From: Candidatus Gastranaerophilales bacterium
GTDB taxonomy: Bacteria > Cyanobacteriota > Vampirovibrionia > Gastranaerophilales > Gastranaerophilaceae
NCBI GenBank assembly: GCA_905234915.1
Contig: CAJOJP010000025.1
Span: 14,882-48,826 of the forward strand
DNA: 33,945 nucleotides
Direction: 5' to 3'
The translations under genes and the position numbers were made by a program. The notes beneath the pieces are model-generated. The model did not search any database and was not told the DNA's origin. It saw nothing but the letters and a program-made list of their open reading frames with translations. Shown here piece after piece: positions 15,657 through 33,037 of this stretch. The first letter of the stretch is position 1. Every line of letters starts with the position of its first letter.

Positions 15657-15724
15657 AATTTAAAATAGTTTTATCAAGTGCTTAATTTTTAATTCTTTTT
15701 TCTTTTTTTATTTAATTTTTTTAT

Positions 15725-15730
15725 TATAAT
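15725..15730 (+). promoter_or_regulatory. -10 element placing the TPR gene on a leaderless mRNA
   Basis: A perfect TATAAT ends 6 bases before the ATG at 15737, and no Shine-Dalgarno lies between. Transcription would start at or next to the A of the ATG. The -35 region is only T-rich. Confidence 0.5.
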
Positions 15731-15736
15731 AAAATT

Positions 15737-16516
15737 ATGGAAGATAAAGAAAATAAAGAAATAGAAAAAGCACTTGATTTATTTAAAAAATCAGAGTACG
15801 AAAAGGCAATTGAGGCTTTTAACGAACTTTTAGACAAGGATAAAAACAATCCGAATATTTTAAATAATATCGGTTTATGTTATATGAAGCTTGCTGATGA
15901 TGAAAGAGCTTCGGAATATTTTATTAAGTCTTTATCTTTTAACCCGAAGGCTGTTCAAACGTACATCAATCTTGCCGATGTTTATTTCAGAAATAATAAT
16001 ATAATTGAAGGAATAAATCTGCTGGAAAACGGTGTTACGCTTATGCCCGGTGAAATTGCACTCAAACATTATCTTTCAAGATTTTATTTAAAAGACTGCC
16101 GTTATGATTTAGCGATGACCGAATTATTTGAAATTTTGGATATTGATGCCGATAATCTTGATGCTTATTGGGACTTAGGGAATATTCAATTTGAACTCGG
16201 AGATTATGACAGTGCTGTTGAAAACTATGAAAATGTACTTGAGCATATTACAACAAATGCAGTTATGTATTATCAGACTGCTATTACTTATGAAGCCGCC
16301 GATAATATAGATAAGGCAATATCCAACCATTTAAAAGCTGTTTCCTGCAACGAAAATTTTGAACCGTCCTACAAAAAACTCGGAATACTTTTTATGGCAC
16401 GTTCTGATAATCAAAGTGCTATTGAATATTTTGAAGATTATTTAAAATTCGACTTACCGAAAGATGAAAGAAAAAATATTGAAGATTTAATAACAAGATT
16501 ACAAATTAATACCTAA
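15737..16516 (+). CDS. TPR-repeat protein
   Basis: A 259-aa soluble protein made almost entirely of about seven tetratricopeptide repeats from residue 6 onward. Examples are the unit starting KKSEYEKAIEAFNELL, then ILNNIGLCYMKLADDERASEYFIKSL, and later LGNIQFELGDYDSAVENYENVL. Such solenoids bind partner proteins, and the partner cannot be read here. Its stop codon TAA shares a base with the ATG of the histidine kinase (TAATG), so the two are translationally coupled and may work together as a sensory pair. No Shine-Dalgarno is present, and a TATAAT lies 6 bases before the start. Confidence 0.92.
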   Translation: MEDKENKEIEKALDLFKKSEYEKAIEAFNELLDKDKNNPNILNNIGLCYMKLADDERASEYFIKSLSFNPKAVQTYINLADVYFRNNNIIEGINLLENGVTLMPGEIALKHYLSRFYLKDCRYDLAMTELFEILDIDADNLDAYWDLGNIQFELGDYDSAVENYENVLEHITTNAVMYYQTAITYEAADNIDKAISNHLKAVSCNENFEPSYKKLGILFMARSDNQSAIEYFEDYLKFDLPKDERKNIEDLITRLQINT

Positions 16517-21734: not shown

Positions 21735-21744
21735 TTTTATTATT

Positions 21745-21778
21745 AAAAAAAGAGAATGCCGAAGCATTCTCTTTTTTT
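21745..21778. terminator. Intrinsic terminator of adhE (bidirectional)
   Basis: A perfect 15-bp stem (21745-21759 with 21764-21778) has a CGAA tetraloop. A-runs and T-runs at the ends allow function on both strands. It starts 10 bases past the adhE stop. Confidence 0.95.
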
Positions 21779-21804
21779 ATGTTTAAGTTTCAAATAATTA
21801 TATA

Positions 21805-21836
21805 AAAGAAGCTGTCCGTTTTGGAACAGCTTCTTT
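21805..21836 (-). terminator. Intrinsic terminator of the SDAD-repeat gene
   Basis: An 11-bp stem pairs 21805-21815 with 21826-21836. On the minus strand it ends in CTTCTTTTAT, about 20 bases beyond the SDAD gene stop at 21858. Together with the adhE terminator it insulates two convergent genes. Confidence 0.8.
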
Positions 21837-21857
21837 ACTTCAATATTGAAAATATTA

Positions 21858-24800
21858 TTATTGTTGTTGTGTTGATTTGTCTTTATCGTCATCTGCATCT
21901 GAATCAGAATCCGAATCGCTATCGCTGTCTGAATCCGAATCGCTATCGCTGTCTGAATCTGAGTCGCTATCGCTGTCTGAATCTGAATCGCTGTCGCTGT
22001 CGGAGTCTGAATCGCTGTCGCTATCTGAATCTGCGTCACTGTCGCTGTCTGAATCTGAATCGCTATCGCTATCTGAATCTGCGTCACTATCTGCATCGGA
22101 ATCTGCGTCACTATCAGCATCGCTATCTGCATCACTGTCCGCATCTGAATCTGCATCACTATCGGCATCTGAATCAGCGTCACTGTCTGCATCGGAATCT
22201 GCGTCACTATCAGCATCGCTATCTGCATCACTGTCCGCATCTGAATCTGCATCACTATCTGCATCTGAATCAGCGTCACTGTCTGCATCGGAATCTGCGT
22301 CACTGTCTGCATCCGAATCTGCGTCACTATCTGCGTCACTATCTGCATCGGAATCCGCGTCACTGTCTGCATCGCTATCTGCGTCACTATCTGCATCGCT
22401 ATCGGCATCACTGTCCGCATCTGAATCAGCGTCACTGTCTGCATCCGAATCTGCATCACTGTCTGCATCCGAATCTGCGTCACTGTCTGCATCGGAATCT
22501 GCGTCACTATCTGCATCGCTATCTGCGTCACTGTCTGCATCGGAATCTGCGTCACTATCTGCATCGCTATCTGCGTCACTATCTGCATCGGAATCAGCGT
22601 CACTGTCTGCATCGGAATCTGCGTCACTGTCTGCATCGCTATCTGCGTCACTATCTGCATCGCTATCTGCATCACTGTCCGCATCTGAATCAGCGTCACT
22701 GTCGGCATCGCTATCGGCGTCACTATCTGCATCGCTATCTGCGTCACTATCTGCATCGCTATCTGCATCACTGTCCGCATCTGAATCAGCGTCACTGTCT
22801 GCATCTGAATCAGCGTCACTGTCTGCATCTGAATCAGCGTCACTATCTGCGTCACTATCTGCATCGGAATCAGCGTCACTGTCTGCATCCGAATCTGCGT
22901 CACTATCTGCATCACTATCGGCGTCACTGTCAGCGTCACTATCAGCGTCGCTATCCGCATCTGAATCAGCGTCACTGTCTGCATCGGAATCTGCGTCACT
23001 GTCGGCATCGGAATCAGCATCACTGTCCGCGTCTGAATCTGCATCACTGTCCGCGTCTGAATCTGCATCACTGTCCGCATCTGAATCAGCGTCACTGTCT
23101 GCATCGCTATCGGCGTCACTATCTGCATCACTATCGGCGTCACTATCAGCGTCACTATCCGCGTCGCTATCCGCATCTGAATCAGCGTCACTGTCTGCAT
23201 CGGAATCTGCGTCACTATCTGCATCACTATCGGCGTCACTATCAGCGTCACTATCCGCATCTGAATCAGCATCGCTATCGGCATCTGAATCTGCATCGCT
23301 ATCTGCATCGCTGTCTGCATCGCTATCTGCGTCACTATCCGCATCTGAATCTGCATCACTGTCTGCATCGGAATCAGCATCGCTATCGGCATCGGAATCA
23401 GCGTCACTGTCTGCATCGCTATCAGCGTCACTGTCTGCATCGGAATCCGCATCACTATCTGCATCACTATCGGCGTCACTATCAGCGTCACTATCAGCGT
23501 CACTGTCTGCATCGGAATCAGCGTCACTGTCTGCATCACTATCGGCGTCACTATCAGCGTCACTATCCGCGTCGCTATCCGCATCTGAATCAGCGTCACT
23601 GTCTGCATCGCTATCGGCGTCACTGTCGGCTATCGGCGTCACTATCAGCGTCACTGTCTGCATCTGAATCTGCATCACTGTCTGCATCGGAATCAGCATC
23701 GCTATCGGCATCGGAATCAGCGTCACTGTCTGCATCACTATCAGCATCGCTGTCTGCATCACTGTCTGCATCGCTGTCTGCGTCACTATCGGCATCGGAA
23801 TCAGCGTCACTGTCGGCATCGGAATCAGCATCGCTATCGGCATCTGAATCAGCGTCACTGTCGGCATCGCTATCGGCGTCACTGTCTGCATCGGAATCAG
23901 CGTCACTATCTGCGTCACTATCTGCATCGGAATCAGCGTCACTATCTGCGTCACTATCTGCATCTGAATCAGCATCGCTATCGGCATCTGAATCTGCATC
24001 GCTATCTGCGTCACTGTCAGCATCGCTATCGGCATCTGAATCTGCATCGCTATCTGCGTCACTGTCTGCATCGCTATCGGCATCTGAATCTGCATCGCTA
24101 TCTGCATCGCTGTCCGTGTCACCGTTACCTGAACCGCTGCCTGAGCCTGATCCACTGCCTGAGCCTGATCCACTGCCTGAGCCAGATCCGCTACCTGAAC
24201 CTGATCCTGAACCGTTACCTGATCCGTTGCCGGATCCTGAACCATCACCGGAAGCTGAATCATTGCCTGATCCTGATCCGCTGCCAGAACCACTGCCTGA
24301 GCCTACTCCGTCACCAGAACCGACACCGTCACTGGAGCCTACACCATTGCCTGAACCAACACCGTCACCAGAGCCGCCCTGTACCTCCGGAGTTAATCCA
24401 CCCTGCGTTCCGGGTGTTGTTACCTTTTCATCATCATCGTCATCACTTTTTGAATGCTTACCGCCAAAAATAGCAGCTCCTATTCCTGCAAGCAGAGTAA
24501 AGCCTAAAACCATATTTGCTTCTTTTTGGTCGGCAGCAGAGCCTTTTTTCTTTACTGAACCGCTATTTTGAGTTGAACCTGCTTTTGCTGCCGAGCCTGT
24601 TCCTTTGGCAGAACCTGTTCCGCCTGCAGAACCTGTGCTATCTGCCGAGCCTGCTCCATTTGCATTTCCGGCAGCCGCTGATGTTGATGCTACATTATCA
24701 TCTTCATCACCAAAATCATATTCCATTGAGGGTACATTATTCCAATCACGAACTCCTGCACTGGAGAAAGTTACTTCATCTGTCGGAACTCCAACGTTAT

Positions 24801-25047
24801 TAACTAATTTAATAGCCCCCGACATTGCCGCTACTGTAGGGTCTGTATTTTCTTTAACTTTATTATCCACTTCAATTTCCGGCACCGTATTCACTGGAAC
24901 CGAAGTTTCTGGCACCGTATTATCAGGCACCGTATTCTCGGGAACTTGATTTGCATCTGTGCTTGGTTCCCCTGCCGGCGGTATATTTCCCGAACCCAAT
25001 TTTTTTATGAAAAAATTATCAGGTAAACTAAAATCATTTTCGCTCAT
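21858..25047 (-). CDS. Large Ser-Asp-Ala-Asp repeat protein, frame broken in the repeats
   Basis: About 1,064 aa if read through one frame break. ATG 25047 follows AGGAG by 8 bases. Residues 1-177 are unique, including a VPxNTVP-type Thr/Pro run (36-58) and a GSA-rich stretch. There is a single hydrophobic Gly-rich segment, [18 protein letters not shown] (179-196), then a Lys/Asp cluster and a (GS)n region. About 740 residues of SDAD repeats follow, with an SD-only patch near the end and a QQQ C-terminus. There is no signal peptide or LPXTG. At 23629-23635 one 12-base repeat is cut to 7 bases. As written, translation stops at 23620 after 475 residues, and the SDAD frame resumes in another phase to 21858. 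The function is unknown; the protein is extremely acidic and could bind calcium or act as a surface stalk. Confidence 0.8.
21890..24117 (-). repeat. Coding 12-bp tandem repeat array (SDAD units)
   Basis: About 185 degenerate 12-base units encode Ser-Asp-Ala-Asp on the minus strand. Units differ mainly at third positions and by switching serine between AGY and TCN codons. Higher-order 24-36-bp blocks recur many times, for example the plus-strand 12-mers gcatctgaatca and gcgtcactgtct side by side. The end nearest the stop (21900-22080) is denser in plain Ser-Asp. The array keeps other frames open on both strands by composition alone. Confidence 0.95.
24121..24375 (-). repeat. Gly-Ser/Gly-Asn coding repeat
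   Basis: A low-complexity stretch between the membrane segment and the SDAD array encodes alternating Gly-Ser with occasional Asn, Asp and Val (GDGVGSGNG-type units). It probably forms a flexible linker. Confidence 0.8.
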
Positions 25048-25070
25048 TTTAAATACTCCTACTAAAATAC

Positions 25071-25083
25071 ATAAGTTACTTAT
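25071..25083. promoter_or_regulatory. Palindrome upstream of the SDAD gene
   Basis: ATAAGT-T-ACTTAT is a perfect inverted repeat 24 bases before the SDAD start codon. It could be an operator, but the 83-base gap is so AT-rich that chance is possible. No clear -35/-10 pair was found. Confidence 0.25.
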
Positions 25084-25130
25084 CGACAAAATTAAAAAAA
25101 ACTTTAAAAATTTTTTTTTTGCGCTTTACA

Positions 25131-26468
25131 TTACTTTACATAAACAGTTGAAAATCTGAAGGCTTTAAATGTTTTTGAAAAATAATCGGGTTTCATACCT
25201 GCTTTAATTTTTAGTGATTTTAAAAATTCTTTTTTATCAGGCAACTGTTCCCATACAGAAGGTAAATATACCGCACTGAGTTTTCCGTCCTGAATGATAA
25301 TCCCATCTTCAAAAGGAACAATTTTATCAAGCAAATCTTCTTCACTTGTAAACTCTATAGCCGTAGAATGCGATAATAAAGAAATTGCTATGGATAAATC
25401 TTTTACTTCATCTTGAGAAACAGGCTGAAATCTTGGATCTTTAAAGGCTGCATCCGAGGCATGATGAACTATATCAATAATTAAAGGCTGATAGGCACTC
25501 AATGAACCAATGCAGCCTCTAAGCCTGCCGTTTTTTTCTAATGTAACAAAGCTTGCTCCAAATTCGTCCAATACCTGAGGATATCTGTGCTGTGAAGGTT
25601 TTTTATCAAAACTTGATTCTATTACTGTTTTTGCAAGGTCTAAAATAAAATCACCATAATATTCTTTTATATATTCATTTTTTTCTCCCTCAAACAGAAA
25701 CCAGGTGCCATAACCTACTACTCTTGAAATGTCTTTTGTTACAAATGCAGAATTAATCATATCAACTCTAATCATAGAAAAATTATTTTGTTTTGCAAAA
25801 TTACAAAGTCCTATTATTCCCATAATTCCGCAAGCCTGACCTGTTTCAACTCCGTTAAAATCAGCTTTTTCTATCATTTGTGCAGTAATTAAATCAATTT
25901 TTTTGGCTTCTTCATCAGTTAAAAAATGACTTAAATCAGAGGATATTATAAAACCGTTTTGTTTATCCTGCCAGTAATCCTGTATAATTTTTGTAATTAA
26001 ATCAGTTGATTGATTTGCTATTAAAACAGGAATTATCTTAACATTACCGATAACCGATTGAATTAAAGGTATTTGAATTTCTATTGAATGTTCCGGCGCA
26101 AGAGCTTCATCCTGATAATTTGCTCCGTATTTTTCTATGAGTTCTTTTGTTATTTCGGTATTTATTTCTACATTTCCAAGCGGAGTTTCCCATTCATCAT
26201 AAGAGGTAACACCAATACCGTCAAACCACTTTTTATGAGCAGGCCCTAATATAAAAATATTTTTAAGACCTTTATCCAGCTGATTTATACCCTCATAAGC
26301 AAGTCTTCCCGAATAAACTAAGCCCGCGTGCGGAACGATAACTGCGCGGGCTTTGTATTTTGAATTATTATAGTTATTATTTTCAAAAGAGAGAATTTGT
26401 GCGGATAACTCAGAAGGATTTCCGCTATAAAATTCATTTGCAACAGATGGTTTCTTTATCTTTTTCAT
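25131..26468 (-). CDS. amrB: AmmeMemoRadiSam system protein: Memo-like (AmrB) fused to AMMECR1-like (AmrA)
   Basis: A 445-aa fusion. Residues about 5-262 are the Memo-like domain, related to extradiol dioxygenases. It keeps the conserved VPHAGLVYSG (H47), GPAHKKWF (H78), EHSIEIQIP (H127) and the Cys of the QACGIMGI motif (C213). Residues about 265-445 are the AMMECR1 domain with its hallmark RLRGCIGSL (315-323). In many bacteria and archaea these two domains co-occur with one radical SAM protein, and the joint function is unknown. That partner lies divergently 23 bases away. The gene has no Shine-Dalgarno. TTTACA (26505-26500) and TATAAT (26482-26477), 17 bases apart, would start transcription 1-2 bases before the ATG. 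Confidence 0.93.
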   Translation of the reverse strand: MKKIKKPSVANEFYSGNPSELSAQILSFENNNYNNSKYKARAVIVPHAGLVYSGRLAYEGINQLDKGLKNIFILGPAHKKWFDGIGVTSYDEWETPLGNVEINTEITKELIEKYGANYQDEALAPEHSIEIQIPLIQSVIGNVKIIPVLIANQSTDLITKIIQDYWQDKQNGFIISSDLSHFLTDEEAKKIDLITAQMIEKADFNGVETGQACGIMGIIGLCNFAKQNNFSMIRVDMINSAFVTKDISRVVGYGTWFLFEGEKNEYIKEYYGDFILDLAKTVIESSFDKKPSQHRYPQVLDEFGASFVTLEKNGRLRGCIGSLSAYQPLIIDIVHHASDAAFKDPRFQPVSQDEVKDLSIAISLLSHSTAIEFTSEEDLLDKIVPFEDGIIIQDGKLSAVYLPSVWEQLPDKKEFLKSLKIKAGMKPDYFSKTFKAFRFSTVYVK

Positions 26469-26474
26469 AATTTC

Positions 26475-26486
26475 GTATTATAATAC
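26475..26486. promoter_or_regulatory. Palindromic shared -10 element for the divergent Amr pair
   Basis: GTATTATAATAC is a perfect 12-bp palindrome containing TATAAT on both strands: plus 26479-26484 and minus 26482-26477. The plus-strand ATG is 7 bases beyond its -10, and the minus-strand ATG is 8 bases beyond. The minus-strand unit has a near-consensus -35 (TTTACA, spacer 17) inside the neighbour's first codons. The plus-strand -35 is weak. Confidence 0.65.
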
Positions 26487-26491
26487 TTTTT

Positions 26492-27490
26492 ATGGAATTT
26501 GTAAAGTACTTTCAAAACAAAAAAGTAAAATGTCTGATTTGTCCGCGGGAATGCTTTTTAAATGAAGGACAAAGAGGTTTTTGTCACGTAAGAGTCAACT
26601 CAAACGGCAGCTTAATTCTTGATACTTACGGAAAAACAACAGGACTTTCTATTGATCCTATTGAAAAAAAACCGCTTTATCATTTTTATCCCGCATCACA
26701 AGTTCTTTCTTTCGGAACTTTCGGCTGTAATATGGGATGCTTATTCTGCCAGAATTTTCACATTAGTAAATATAGAGGCGATATTTCCGTATCAAAAACA
26801 GCTATGCCTGACGATATAGTTCAAACAGCAAAAAAATATAATTGTAAAAGTGTTGCGTTTACTTATAATGATCCTGATGTTTTTCTTGAATATGCCGTTG
26901 ATACCGCAAAATTATGCCGTGAAGAAGGTATAAAAACTGTTGCCGTTACCGCAGGTTACATTAACGAAGCTCCTCGCAAAGAATTTTACAAGTATATTGA
27001 TGCAGCTAATATTGATTTGAAAGGCTTTAGCGAAGAATTTTATAAGAAAAACTGCCTCGCTCATCTGCAACCTGTTTTAAATACCATAAAATATACTGTT
27101 AATGAAACTCCCTGCCACGTTGAACTTACTACTCTTTTAATCGAAGGAGAAAATGACTCTGTAACAATGCTTGAAAATGAATGCAAATGGATTACTGATA
27201 ATCTCGGAAACAATGTTCCCCTGCATTTTAGTGCATTTTACCCGAGATATAAATTCAATGACAGAAAATCAACAAGCTTGCAAACACTTTTAAATGCCCG
27301 TAATATTGCAATTAATGCCGGAATAAAATACGTTTATACAGGCAATCTTGATACCGTTGAAACCTCCTCTACATACTGCCATAATTGCAAAAACATTATT
27401 ATTAAAAGATACGGCTACAATATTTTAGAATATAATCTTACCGGCAACAAATGCAATTTCTGCGGCAGCGAATGCATTGGCAAATTTTAA
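26492..27490 (+). CDS. amrS: AmmeMemoRadiSam system radical SAM enzyme
   Basis: A 332-aa radical SAM protein of the PFL-activase-like group. The [4Fe-4S] motif CNMGCLFC (C79, C83, C86) binds SAM. An N-terminal cysteine cluster (C14, C17, C21, C31) and a C-terminal zinc-ribbon-like set (YCHNC and KCNFCGSEC) are typical of AmrS. It starts 23 bases from the divergent Memo-AMMECR1 fusion, completing the AmmeMemoRadiSam triad in two genes. The physiological reaction is not established. No Shine-Dalgarno is present, and TATAAT ends 7 bases before the ATG, so a leaderless transcript is predicted. Confidence 0.93.
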   Translation: MEFVKYFQNKKVKCLICPRECFLNEGQRGFCHVRVNSNGSLILDTYGKTTGLSIDPIEKKPLYHFYPASQVLSFGTFGCNMGCLFCQNFHISKYRGDISVSKTAMPDDIVQTAKKYNCKSVAFTYNDPDVFLEYAVDTAKLCREEGIKTVAVTAGYINEAPRKEFYKYIDAANIDLKGFSEEFYKKNCLAHLQPVLNTIKYTVNETPCHVELTTLLIEGENDSVTMLENECKWITDNLGNNVPLHFSAFYPRYKFNDRKSTSLQTLLNARNIAINAGIKYVYTGNLDTVETSSTYCHNCKNIIIKRYGYNILEYNLTGNKCNFCGSECIGKF

Positions 27491-30303: not shown

Positions 30304-31917
30304 TTATGAAGCAGGCTGTTCTTCCGGTACATATCTTGTAATTTGACCGTCTATAAACATGTGAATACAATTTTTTCCGTTCCTTTTTGAAACATATAAA
30401 GCTTTATCGGCACAATCAATTAAACTTTTAATTTCTGTTGCGGTATTTGGAAATTCTGCTAAACCTATACTCACAGTCGGACTAACAAAAGTGTTTTCAT
30501 CAACTTTTATTTCTATTTCGCTTATTTTTTGTCTTAATCTTTCTGCAATTGTAACAGCTTTATCAGTTGAAGTTTCAGGTAAAATAACAGTAAACTCTTC
30601 ACCGCCGTAACGTGCAGGAATATCAACATGTCTTATAGTCTTTTGAATTGTCGAAGCAATTTCTTTCAGCACTATATCGCCAATTAAATGTCCGTAGGTA
30701 TCATTTACATTTTTAAAGTTATCTATATCCATCATTAGTAAAGTCAAAGAATGACGGTAACGCTGCACTCTTTTTAATTCGGATTCAAGCAGAGAATAAA
30801 AATGCCTGTGTATATAAAGTTTTGTTAATCCGTCTTTTGTAGCCAGTTCGTACAGCTGAGCATTATCTACCGCGATGGCTGCTTGATTTGCAAGTGCTTC
30901 AACAAATTCCAAATCTTTTTTATTAAAAAGTTTTCCGTTCTTTTTATTTGTAATATTAATAATACCGATACACTCGCCTTTTGCAATTAAAGGCACGCAT
31001 ATTAAAGAGGATATACTGCCGTTTGTATTAAACTGGCTAAATCTCGGGTCTTGTCCGCCTAAATTTGTAATGATTGATTTTTTTTCGGTAAATACTTTTC
31101 CTGCAATACCGCTGTCGGGTGTCATTCTTTTACACTCAATAAGACCGTTATTTATTTCGTCTTCCTGCTTTTTATCTTTTAAACCATATACTACTTTAAC
31201 CTGCAATGTATTATCAGATGAATCATATAGCATTAAAGACCCTTTTTCGGCATTAACGGTTTCTATGGCTTTATCTAATATTACACCGATTAAGCGTTTT
31301 AAATCATCAATAAAGTTAACTGCCTGTGATATATTATAAAGTATTGAGAGATTGTGAAGTGTTTTATTAAGCTCAAGTATTTCATTTTCCTGCTCTTTAT
31401 TTTTTATAAATTTTCTTAAAATCGGATCAATACAACTAAAGACTTTATCTATATACTTAAAATCATTTTCCGTATATATTGACTCATCATCTTTTTCGCC
31501 GATAAAACAAACACAAAACGGCTCATGATTATGATATAAAGATTTAATATATTTTGCATTTAAACCGTGCAAATTTTGAGTATCCCAAAATGCTTTATAA
31601 ATTAAATGTCCATCTTCATTTCTAACATTTATAAGTTCTTCCGTTTCATTCTGCAAAAAAGGAGCATTATCGGCATCAAACTCATATTCGTTGTCGGAGT
31701 CGGTAGAAATATTCTTGGTTTGAAAAATCCCGTTGTTTAACAAAAAGAACCTGATAGCTTTTAGTCCTAAAGAAGATTTTACCAAAAAAGTAATCTTCGA
31801 CAATAAATCTTCAATAGAACGCGATTGATTTGCAACCATATTTAAATCAAATAAATTATGCAATTCTAAAACATTTTTTTGTAAACTATAAACTTTTTCT
31901 GCTAAATCCTGATTCAT
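30304..31917 (-). CDS. Diguanylate cyclase with two GAF-type sensor domains
   Basis: A 537-aa predicted cytosolic enzyme making cyclic-di-GMP from GTP. A GAF-like domain spans about 30-170, then a coiled linker. A clearer GAF is at about 190-357 (KGSLMLYD, GIAGKVF, ICVPLIAKGECIGIINI). GGDEF runs from about 360 to 525, with the active site GGEEF (438-442). An intact inhibitory RxxD site (RHVD 429-432) lies exactly five residues before it, so product inhibition is expected. No EAL or HD-GYP domain is present. ATG 31917 is chosen: TATAAT ends 6 bases before it, with TTGTAA 17 bases further up. An upstream ATG at 31965 would overlap ribD and adds non-family residues. Confidence 0.92.
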   Translation of the reverse strand: MNQDLAEKVYSLQKNVLELHNLFDLNMVANQSRSIEDLLSKITFLVKSSLGLKAIRFFLLNNGIFQTKNISTDSDNEYEFDADNAPFLQNETEELINVRNEDGHLIYKAFWDTQNLHGLNAKYIKSLYHNHEPFCVCFIGEKDDESIYTENDFKYIDKVFSCIDPILRKFIKNKEQENEILELNKTLHNLSILYNISQAVNFIDDLKRLIGVILDKAIETVNAEKGSLMLYDSSDNTLQVKVVYGLKDKKQEDEINNGLIECKRMTPDSGIAGKVFTEKKSIITNLGGQDPRFSQFNTNGSISSLICVPLIAKGECIGIINITNKKNGKLFNKKDLEFVEALANQAAIAVDNAQLYELATKDGLTKLYIHRHFYSLLESELKRVQRYRHSLTLLMMDIDNFKNVNDTYGHLIGDIVLKEIASTIQKTIRHVDIPARYGGEEFTVILPETSTDKAVTIAERLRQKISEIEIKVDENTFVSPTVSIGLAEFPNTATEIKSLIDCADKALYVSKRNGKNCIHMFIDGQITRYVPEEQPAS

Positions 31918-31923
31918 ATTCCG

Positions 31924-31952
31924 ATTATACCTTAAATAATTTATTTTTACAA
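31924..31952 (-). promoter_or_regulatory. Promoter at the ribD stop giving a leaderless cyclase mRNA
   Basis: On the minus strand, TTGTAA (31952-31947) and TATAAT (31929-31924) are 17 bases apart. The -10 overlaps the ribD stop codon. The cyclase ATG lies 6 bases downstream of the -10, so transcription would begin at the start codon. Confidence 0.55.
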
Positions 31953-33037
31953 AAATATCCGACAATCATTATATCGCTTTTTAATTTTTTCGTCGATACT
32001 AATTTTAAAGTATTGCATTCTGAGATATTTTGTCTGATGCATCCTTGCGAAAAATCTATACCTTCTTTATCGGAGAGTATTTTAGGCGCAATAAACTGAA
32101 TAAGTTTATCAACTAAGCCTTCCTGTATAAAGGAATTATTTAGAAAAGCCCCTGCTTCAACAAGAATACTTTTTATTCCCTCTTTATATAATAAGCTAAC
32201 AGCTTTAGATAAATCCACCCTTTTATTTTTCATAGGACATTTAATTATTTTAACATTATAATTAAAATTCAGAATTTTATCATCGGGAATATTTTCTCCC
32301 GTAATAATTATAACAGGAGTTTTATCATCATTATATACATTAAAATCACCTGTTGTTTTTAAAGTTGTATCAATTACAATCCTTATTGGATTTCTTCCGT
32401 TTTTCATCCGGCATGTCAAAGAAGGGTTATCTTTTATTACGGTATTTGAACTTGTTAAAACGGCATCATATTTATTTCTTAATTTTTGCACTTCATATCT
32501 TGAGGTTTCATCAGTAATCCATTTTGAATTGCCTGTTCTTGCCGCAATTTTACCGTCAAGTGTAACAGCAGTTTTAATTGTAATAAAAGGCATTTTTTCA
32601 AGTTGATTTTTTATAAAAATTTCATTAAACATAAGGCATTCATCTTCAAGAACACCTGTTATAACTTCAATTCCCGCTTCTTTTAATTTTTTTATTCCGC
32701 TGCCCGATACAAGGGGATTAGGGTCAATCATACCTATGATAACTTTTTTTAAGCCTTTTTCTATAATCAAATCGGCGCAGGGCGGAGTTTTTCCGTAATG
32801 CGAACAGGGTTCAAGATTTACTATTATTGATTTTCCGGATAAATCAGCTGAGGTATTAAGTAATGCATTTCGTTCGGCATGGTTTTCGCCATATTTAGCG
32901 TGATATCCTTCCGATATAATATTAAAATTATCATCAAAAACAACCGCTCCGACAAGAGGATTAGGAGAAACTCTGCCCTCCCCTTTTTTGGCAAGCATCA
33001 AACAATGCTTCATCAACTTTTTATAATTATCCGACAT
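31925..33037 (-). CDS. ribD: Bifunctional riboflavin biosynthesis deaminase/reductase
   Basis: A 370-aa enzyme covering two steps of riboflavin synthesis: deamination of the pyrimidine intermediate, then reduction of the ribosyl side chain with NADPH. The N-terminal deaminase has H53-A-E55 and the zinc ligands in PCSHYGKTPPC (C78, C87). The reductase domain starts around residue 147 with the family phrases KTAVTLDGKIAA, SKWIT and VEAGAFLNNSF. No other rib gene is in the window. The start overlaps the upstream hypothetical gene by 11 bases, so expression is coupled. No FMN riboswitch was recognised upstream. Confidence 0.96.
   Translation of the reverse strand: MSDNYKKLMKHCLMLAKKGEGRVSPNPLVGAVVFDDNFNIISEGYHAKYGENHAERNALLNTSADLSGKSIIVNLEPCSHYGKTPPCADLIIEKGLKKVIIGMIDPNPLVSGSGIKKLKEAGIEVITGVLEDECLMFNEIFIKNQLEKMPFITIKTAVTLDGKIAARTGNSKWITDETSRYEVQKLRNKYDAVLTSSNTVIKDNPSLTCRMKNGRNPIRIVIDTTLKTTGDFNVYNDDKTPVIIITGENIPDDKILNFNYNVKIIKCPMKNKRVDLSKAVSLLYKEGIKSILVEAGAFLNNSFIQEGLVDKLIQFIAPKILSDKEGIDFSQGCIRQNISECNTLKLVSTKKLKSDIMIVGYFCKNKLFKV

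Follow-up and report, generated by a model that had tools for sequence, protein, structure and literature searches.

Genes and sequence elements at the amr locus

The analysed DNA (the window) was a 33,945-nucleotide stretch of a Candidatus Gastranaerophilales genome, and all coordinates refer to it. Two genes lie head-to-head: amrS, encoding the AmmeMemoRadiSam radical SAM enzyme (26492..27490, + strand, 332 aa; TIGR04337, E=2e-141), and a Memo-AMMECR1 fusion gene, encoding AmmeMemoRadiSam proteins B and A (25131..26468, - strand, 445 aa; TIGR04336 and TIGR04335). The scores of all three models exceeded their cut-offs, which upheld the earlier assignment of both divergent genes to the Amr system and gives a complete AmmeMemoRadiSam trio with Memo and AMMECR1 fused. 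The two ATG codons (26492 on the + strand and 26468 on the - strand) are separated by 23 bp, and no earlier start is possible in either open reading frame (ORF). A literature search on the function of the Amr system returned nothing useful. The gene pair was present in 4 of the 41 genomes of the window genus, and these four occupied at least three places in the partner-protein tree, a patchy distribution attributed to loss or transfer. Beyond the pair, at 21743-25089, long ORFs of up to 916 aa overlap on both strands; the - strand ORF 23620-25089 matched models of Ser-Asp repeat adhesins, but with scores well under the cut-offs, and its repeat composition probably explains these matches.

A perfect 12-bp palindrome, GTATTATAATAC (26475..26486), is located between the two start codons. 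Its 8-bp core, ATTATAAT (26477..26484), reads TATAAT on both strands: the -10 element of amrS is found at 26479..26484 (+), 7 nt (26485-26491) before the ATG, and that of Memo-AMMECR1 at 26477..26482 (-), 8 nt (26476-26469) before the ATG. The two perfect hexamers share 4 bp on opposite strands. Each gene therefore has a TANNNT box about 6-8 nt from its start codon, and no Shine-Dalgarno (SD) sequence precedes either ATG. Direct reading of the sequence bore out the initial annotation on the shared palindrome, its position, both distances and the missing SD sequences. The motif TATTATAATA was observed twice in the window (0.30 expected), a rarity that is weak evidence when taken alone. In its second occurrence (15722-15739), TATAAT precedes the ATG of a TPR-repeat ORF (15737-16516, +) by 6 nt, which makes a leaderless-type start in one direction only.

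A possible -35 element for Memo-AMMECR1, TTTACA (26500..26505, -; 17-bp spacer, within amrS codons 3-5), had also been proposed. The hexamer is present, but it matches the consensus at 5/6 positions only, is missing from the sister locus of the nearest relative (L002) and is no more frequent than chance: 5/6 matches with a 16-18 bp spacer were found at 1.9% of the TATAAT sites of the own genome, as at random positions. TTTACA was therefore dropped as support for a promoter. For amrS, the best -35 candidate was the weak TTATCT (26456..26461, +; 3/6 match), within the Memo-AMMECR1 gene.

Conservation of the palindrome across the order

Searches for amrS covered 98 relatives first and 383 genomes of the order afterwards, and the start regions were compared. 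Divergent loci were defined as those with a Memo-AMMECR1 gene divergent from amrS within 200 bp (n=106). Conservation in relatives had been suggested as a check on the palindrome: the exact 8-bp ATTATAAT was retained at fixed distances in 103 of the 106 divergent loci, and the palindrome is therefore real and beyond chance.

Distances to amrS were measured in the resolvable loci, i.e. those with an amrS ATG within 20 nt of ATTATAAT (n=98). The gap was 7 nt in 85 loci, 6 nt in five, 8 nt in four and 9-11 nt in four. In three loci where the ATG was not resolvable (L055, L078, L104), amrS apparently starts with GTG at a similar distance. By the gap to the partner ATG, the loci divided into a compact class of 71, with 6-8 nt (exactly 6 nt in 65), and a long class of 27, with 20-53 nt. 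The window and L002, its nearest relative, belong to the compact class, yet have a partner gap of 8 nt. Most compact relatives had a 3/6 match to the -35 consensus in both directions, near the genome background, and no -35 element was conserved either way.

On both sides of the palindrome, the spacing was fixed while the intervening bases varied. Several nearby third-codon positions of amrS carried only about 0.2-0.7 bit, compared with 2.0 bits in the core, although the core had been a selection criterion (one that 103/106 loci pass). The full 12-mer GTATTATAATAC was found in 32 of the 98 resolvable loci; the outer arms varied and were often asymmetric, and the invariant portion corresponded exactly to the two hexamers. 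The AT that precedes TATAAT and creates the second -10 element was present at 98/98 amr sites, but at only 3 of the 24 TATAAT boxes of leaderless type elsewhere in the own genome.

In the partner-protein tree, the compact state needs only about three changes, and the compact relatives are therefore not independent evidence. The exact pattern CAT-N6-ATTATAAT-N7-ATG occurred 135 times in the 383 genomes, compared with 25 for a reversed control (hand count); roughly 60 of the occurrences were the amr locus. Among 80 loci from other phyla, 35 likewise had amrS and the Memo gene in divergent orientation, but the interval between the two protein matches was 67 bp or more, usually 100-200 bp. The divergent arrangement is thus widespread; as far as seen, the compact promoter is characteristic of this order.

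Leaderless-type genes elsewhere in the genome

Counts for the own genome were made on 64 stretches (1.21 Mb, about half of the genome) with 911 ORFs starting with ATG. TANAAT peaked 6 nt before the ATG (34 ORFs, 7.9 expected; Poisson p ~6e-12). Only one of 47 genes in which TANAAT lies 6-8 nt from the ATG had an SD sequence, compared with 416 of the 864 remaining ORFs. Judged by these signals, leaderless-type starts are a normal minority class here (~5%); the unusual feature is two of them at one box. The peak lay at 6-7 nt genome-wide and a gap of 8 nt was found in just 2/47 genes, so the 8 nt on the minus side of the window is rare. The extended -10 motif TGn was enriched before leaderless-type -10 boxes (13/45, compared with 6.6% background); the amr palindrome has TAT at the corresponding position. 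The 3' end of the 16S rRNA, sought as a check on the anti-SD sequence, was not found in this assembly.

A search of the own genome for other paired ATTATAAT N5-9 ATG arrangements gave a single match (C4:3761-3788), and no ORF of at least 100 aa begins there. Among the other fetched sites, one further pair had long ORFs on both sides. This second double-leaderless layout, in genomes of the window's genus (L292:1501-1527 and L291), has a UvrC-like gene (identified visually by its N-terminal sequence) and a CxxCxxCC-domain gene (assigned with Pfam) around ATTATAAT, at 6 and 7 nt. The uvrC gene of the own genome has a leaderless-type TAAAAT box and no such close divergent partner. Within the window, a GGDEF/GAF ORF (-) was listed from a TTG at 31965; GGTATAAT stands 6 nt before an ATG at 31917 (31917-31965), which suggests a leaderless start at 31917.

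Relatives with altered layout

In the long-gap relatives, the palindrome remains next to amrS and the leader of the partner carries a recognisable SD sequence in 12/26 cases, compared with 0/71 in the compact class (p ~1e-8), a contrast that is partly forced because the compact gap cannot hold an SD sequence. L145 is compact amid long-gap sisters, with a partner gap of 7 nt. L118 has two separate leaderless-type -10 boxes, one beside amrS and the other, the partner's own TATAAT, 6 nt before the partner ATG; its layout reads as the shared promoter split in two.

An amrS gene without divergent partner but with a -10 element at 6-8 nt was found at six loci, of which three were palindromic and three were not. 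The non-palindromic boxes were TGCTAATAT (L072 and L079) and ACTATAAT (L116). At L063, L111 and L152, amrS is non-divergent, yet ATTATAAT is kept; therefore, the symmetry is not strictly tied to a divergent Memo-AMMECR1 partner. No such -10 element was seen where amrS apparently lies close behind a co-directional gene (e.g. L005, L059, L062).

Proposed bidirectional promoter and alternative explanations

The reading favoured here, with a probability of roughly 85%, is a bidirectional promoter that would yield two leaderless or near-leaderless mRNAs from one palindrome. The 23-bp gap between the ATG codons would hold little beyond a sigma-70-type bidirectional promoter. RNA polymerase would load on ATTATAAT in either orientation, owing to the perfect TATAAT on each strand, and initiate about 7 bp downstream, at a distance of 0-3 nt from the first base of each AUG. 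Both mRNAs would be leaderless or nearly so and would be translated without an SD sequence, and the orientation of the polymerase would decide which gene is made per event. Conservation, the genome-wide leaderless class and the relatives with altered layout make a shared -10 box and leaderless genes well supported; the actual transcription starts, the sigma factor and leaderless translation we infer from sequence and conservation.

The 7-bp rule predicts a plus start at 26491, a T, or at 26492, where AUG begins. For the minus strand it predicts 26470, also a T; nearby A residues are found at 26471 and 26468. With the 6-nt gap of the compact relatives, minus-strand transcription would begin precisely at the first base of AUG; the 8-nt gap of the window would probably give a leader of 0-3 nt, and the A at 26471 could give 3 nt. 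The initial annotation had both mRNAs beginning at or within 1-2 bases of AUG. The leaderless reading is well supported by conservation and by the genome class; for the minus side, the claim is better widened to 0-3 nt from AUG, because its gap of 8 nt is off the 6-7 nt peak and an A stands at 26471. The predicted starts are 21 bp apart when taken from the perfect hexamers, and 22-24 bp apart if both lie at AUG.

Three other explanations were weighed. The palindrome could be the -10 element of amrS only, with the Memo-AMMECR1 promoter farther back inside amrS and the minus-strand TATAAT a by-product. The amrS spacing does persist in loci with the partner at a distance of about 35 nt, and the three non-divergent amrS loci that keep the palindrome fit this explanation. 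It is nevertheless improbable: the partner ATG lies exactly 6 nt from the minus -10 element in 65/71 compact loci, the AT before TATAAT is universal at the amr sites and rare at the other leaderless-type genes (98/98 vs 3/24), and both L145 and L118 have a minus-strand TATAAT at a gap of 6-7 nt. That the palindrome is chiefly the operator of a dimeric regulator, and resembles -10 elements by chance, is more doubtful still. The distances to both starts fit the leaderless -10 peak of the genome, and the lone partner promoter of L118 and the non-divergent amrS genes retain a -10 element and no operator. The perfect 12-bp symmetry and the common outer G and C (45 and 49 of 59 compact loci) speak for an operator, but variable, often asymmetric arms around a constant part that matches two hexamers exactly do not. 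An additional regulator may overlap the -10 boxes.

Least credible is the explanation that both genes are leadered, with promoters within each other's coding region and SD-less translation from an A/T-rich, unstructured leader. About half of the own-genome ORFs lack a recognisable SD sequence, so SD-less leadered genes may exist; such an arrangement gives no reason for a conserved palindrome or a conserved spacing, and the leaderless peak of the genome is strong.

Competition and output ratio

For the shared bidirectional promoter, the output of the two partners had been expected to be mutually exclusive per event and balanced on average. Exclusion holds only in the steric sense: at bidirectional promoters, two polymerases are known to block each other's binding (PMC12825309). 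The same paper reports for five E. coli bidirectional promoters that basal activity is too low for substantial competition, which appears only once one direction is activated; to this extent the expectation falls short. Balanced output of amrS and Memo-AMMECR1 is not supported, the -35 matches being unequal (3/6 vs 5/6) and none of them conserved.

A tentative proposal, which we hold to be possible and somewhat doubtful, is that the 8-bp palindrome is the whole promoter and also fixes the translation starts of a double-leaderless pair, which lie only 21-23 bp apart, having been selected so that polymerase orientation alone sets the AmrS:Memo-AMMECR1 ratio. The locus would represent a minimal intergenic region, in which an 8-bp promoter suffices for two genes and a leader is unnecessary. 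It offers a conserved natural system, with the long-leader relatives as controls, for the question of whether polymerase competition sets protein ratios, and its relatives provide material on switches between SD-led and leaderless translation upon gain or loss of a leader.

Comparison with known systems

A literature search for double-leaderless divergent promoters, with limited coverage of subscription papers, retrieved no description. Each principle is known alone, and the double-leaderless version appears to be new. Bidirectional promoters that arise from -10 symmetry are established (Warman, Grainger and colleagues; accessible parts of PMC12825309 and PMC10268837), and so is the occurrence of leaderless genes whose -10 element adjoins the ORF (PMC12340547, PMC3160421).

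As in the bacterial bidirectional promoters described in the available text of PMC12825309 and PMC10268837, a near-symmetrical -10 region at amr would serve both strands; theirs have transcription start sites (TSSs) 7-25 bp apart, often between divergent, function-linked genes, and the predicted amr separation of 21-24 bp falls inside this range. Within the available text of PMC12825309, E. coli bidirectional promoters prefer TSS distances of 18, 10 and 23 bp, and the 21 bp predicted from the perfect amr hexamers is not among them. The 18-bp geometry (reciprocal -7T/-11A) would require TATTAT on the minus strand (26485-26480) to be read as the -10 element, which would leave a leader of 5 nt. 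Unlike the promoters in these sources, as far as their accessible text goes, the amr hexamers are both perfect TATAAT overlapping by 4 bp, and both products are predicted to be leaderless or nearly so; this combination is not described in those parts of PMC12825309 or PMC10268837.

The amr genes resemble the leaderless genes of Deinococcus-Thermus (PMC12340547; survey in PMC3160421) in having a TANNNT box a few nt ahead of the start codon and no SD sequence; transcription of the latter starts at or near AUG. Both papers present their leaderless genes as one-directional, unlike the amr pair: neither "divergent" nor "bidirectional" appears in PMC12340547, and "divergent" is absent from PMC3160421.

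The lysG-lysE pair of Mycobacterium tuberculosis (PMC5648196) shares with amr the divergent genes and the overlapping promoters, and has one leaderless transcript (P2-lysE). It differs in its 108-bp intergenic region, in its central regulator site and in that its leaderless transcript comes from a promoter other than the shared one. Dozens of related bacteria retain the amr layout, which is therefore real; beside these systems, the amr locus is an unusually compact union of two known phenomena.
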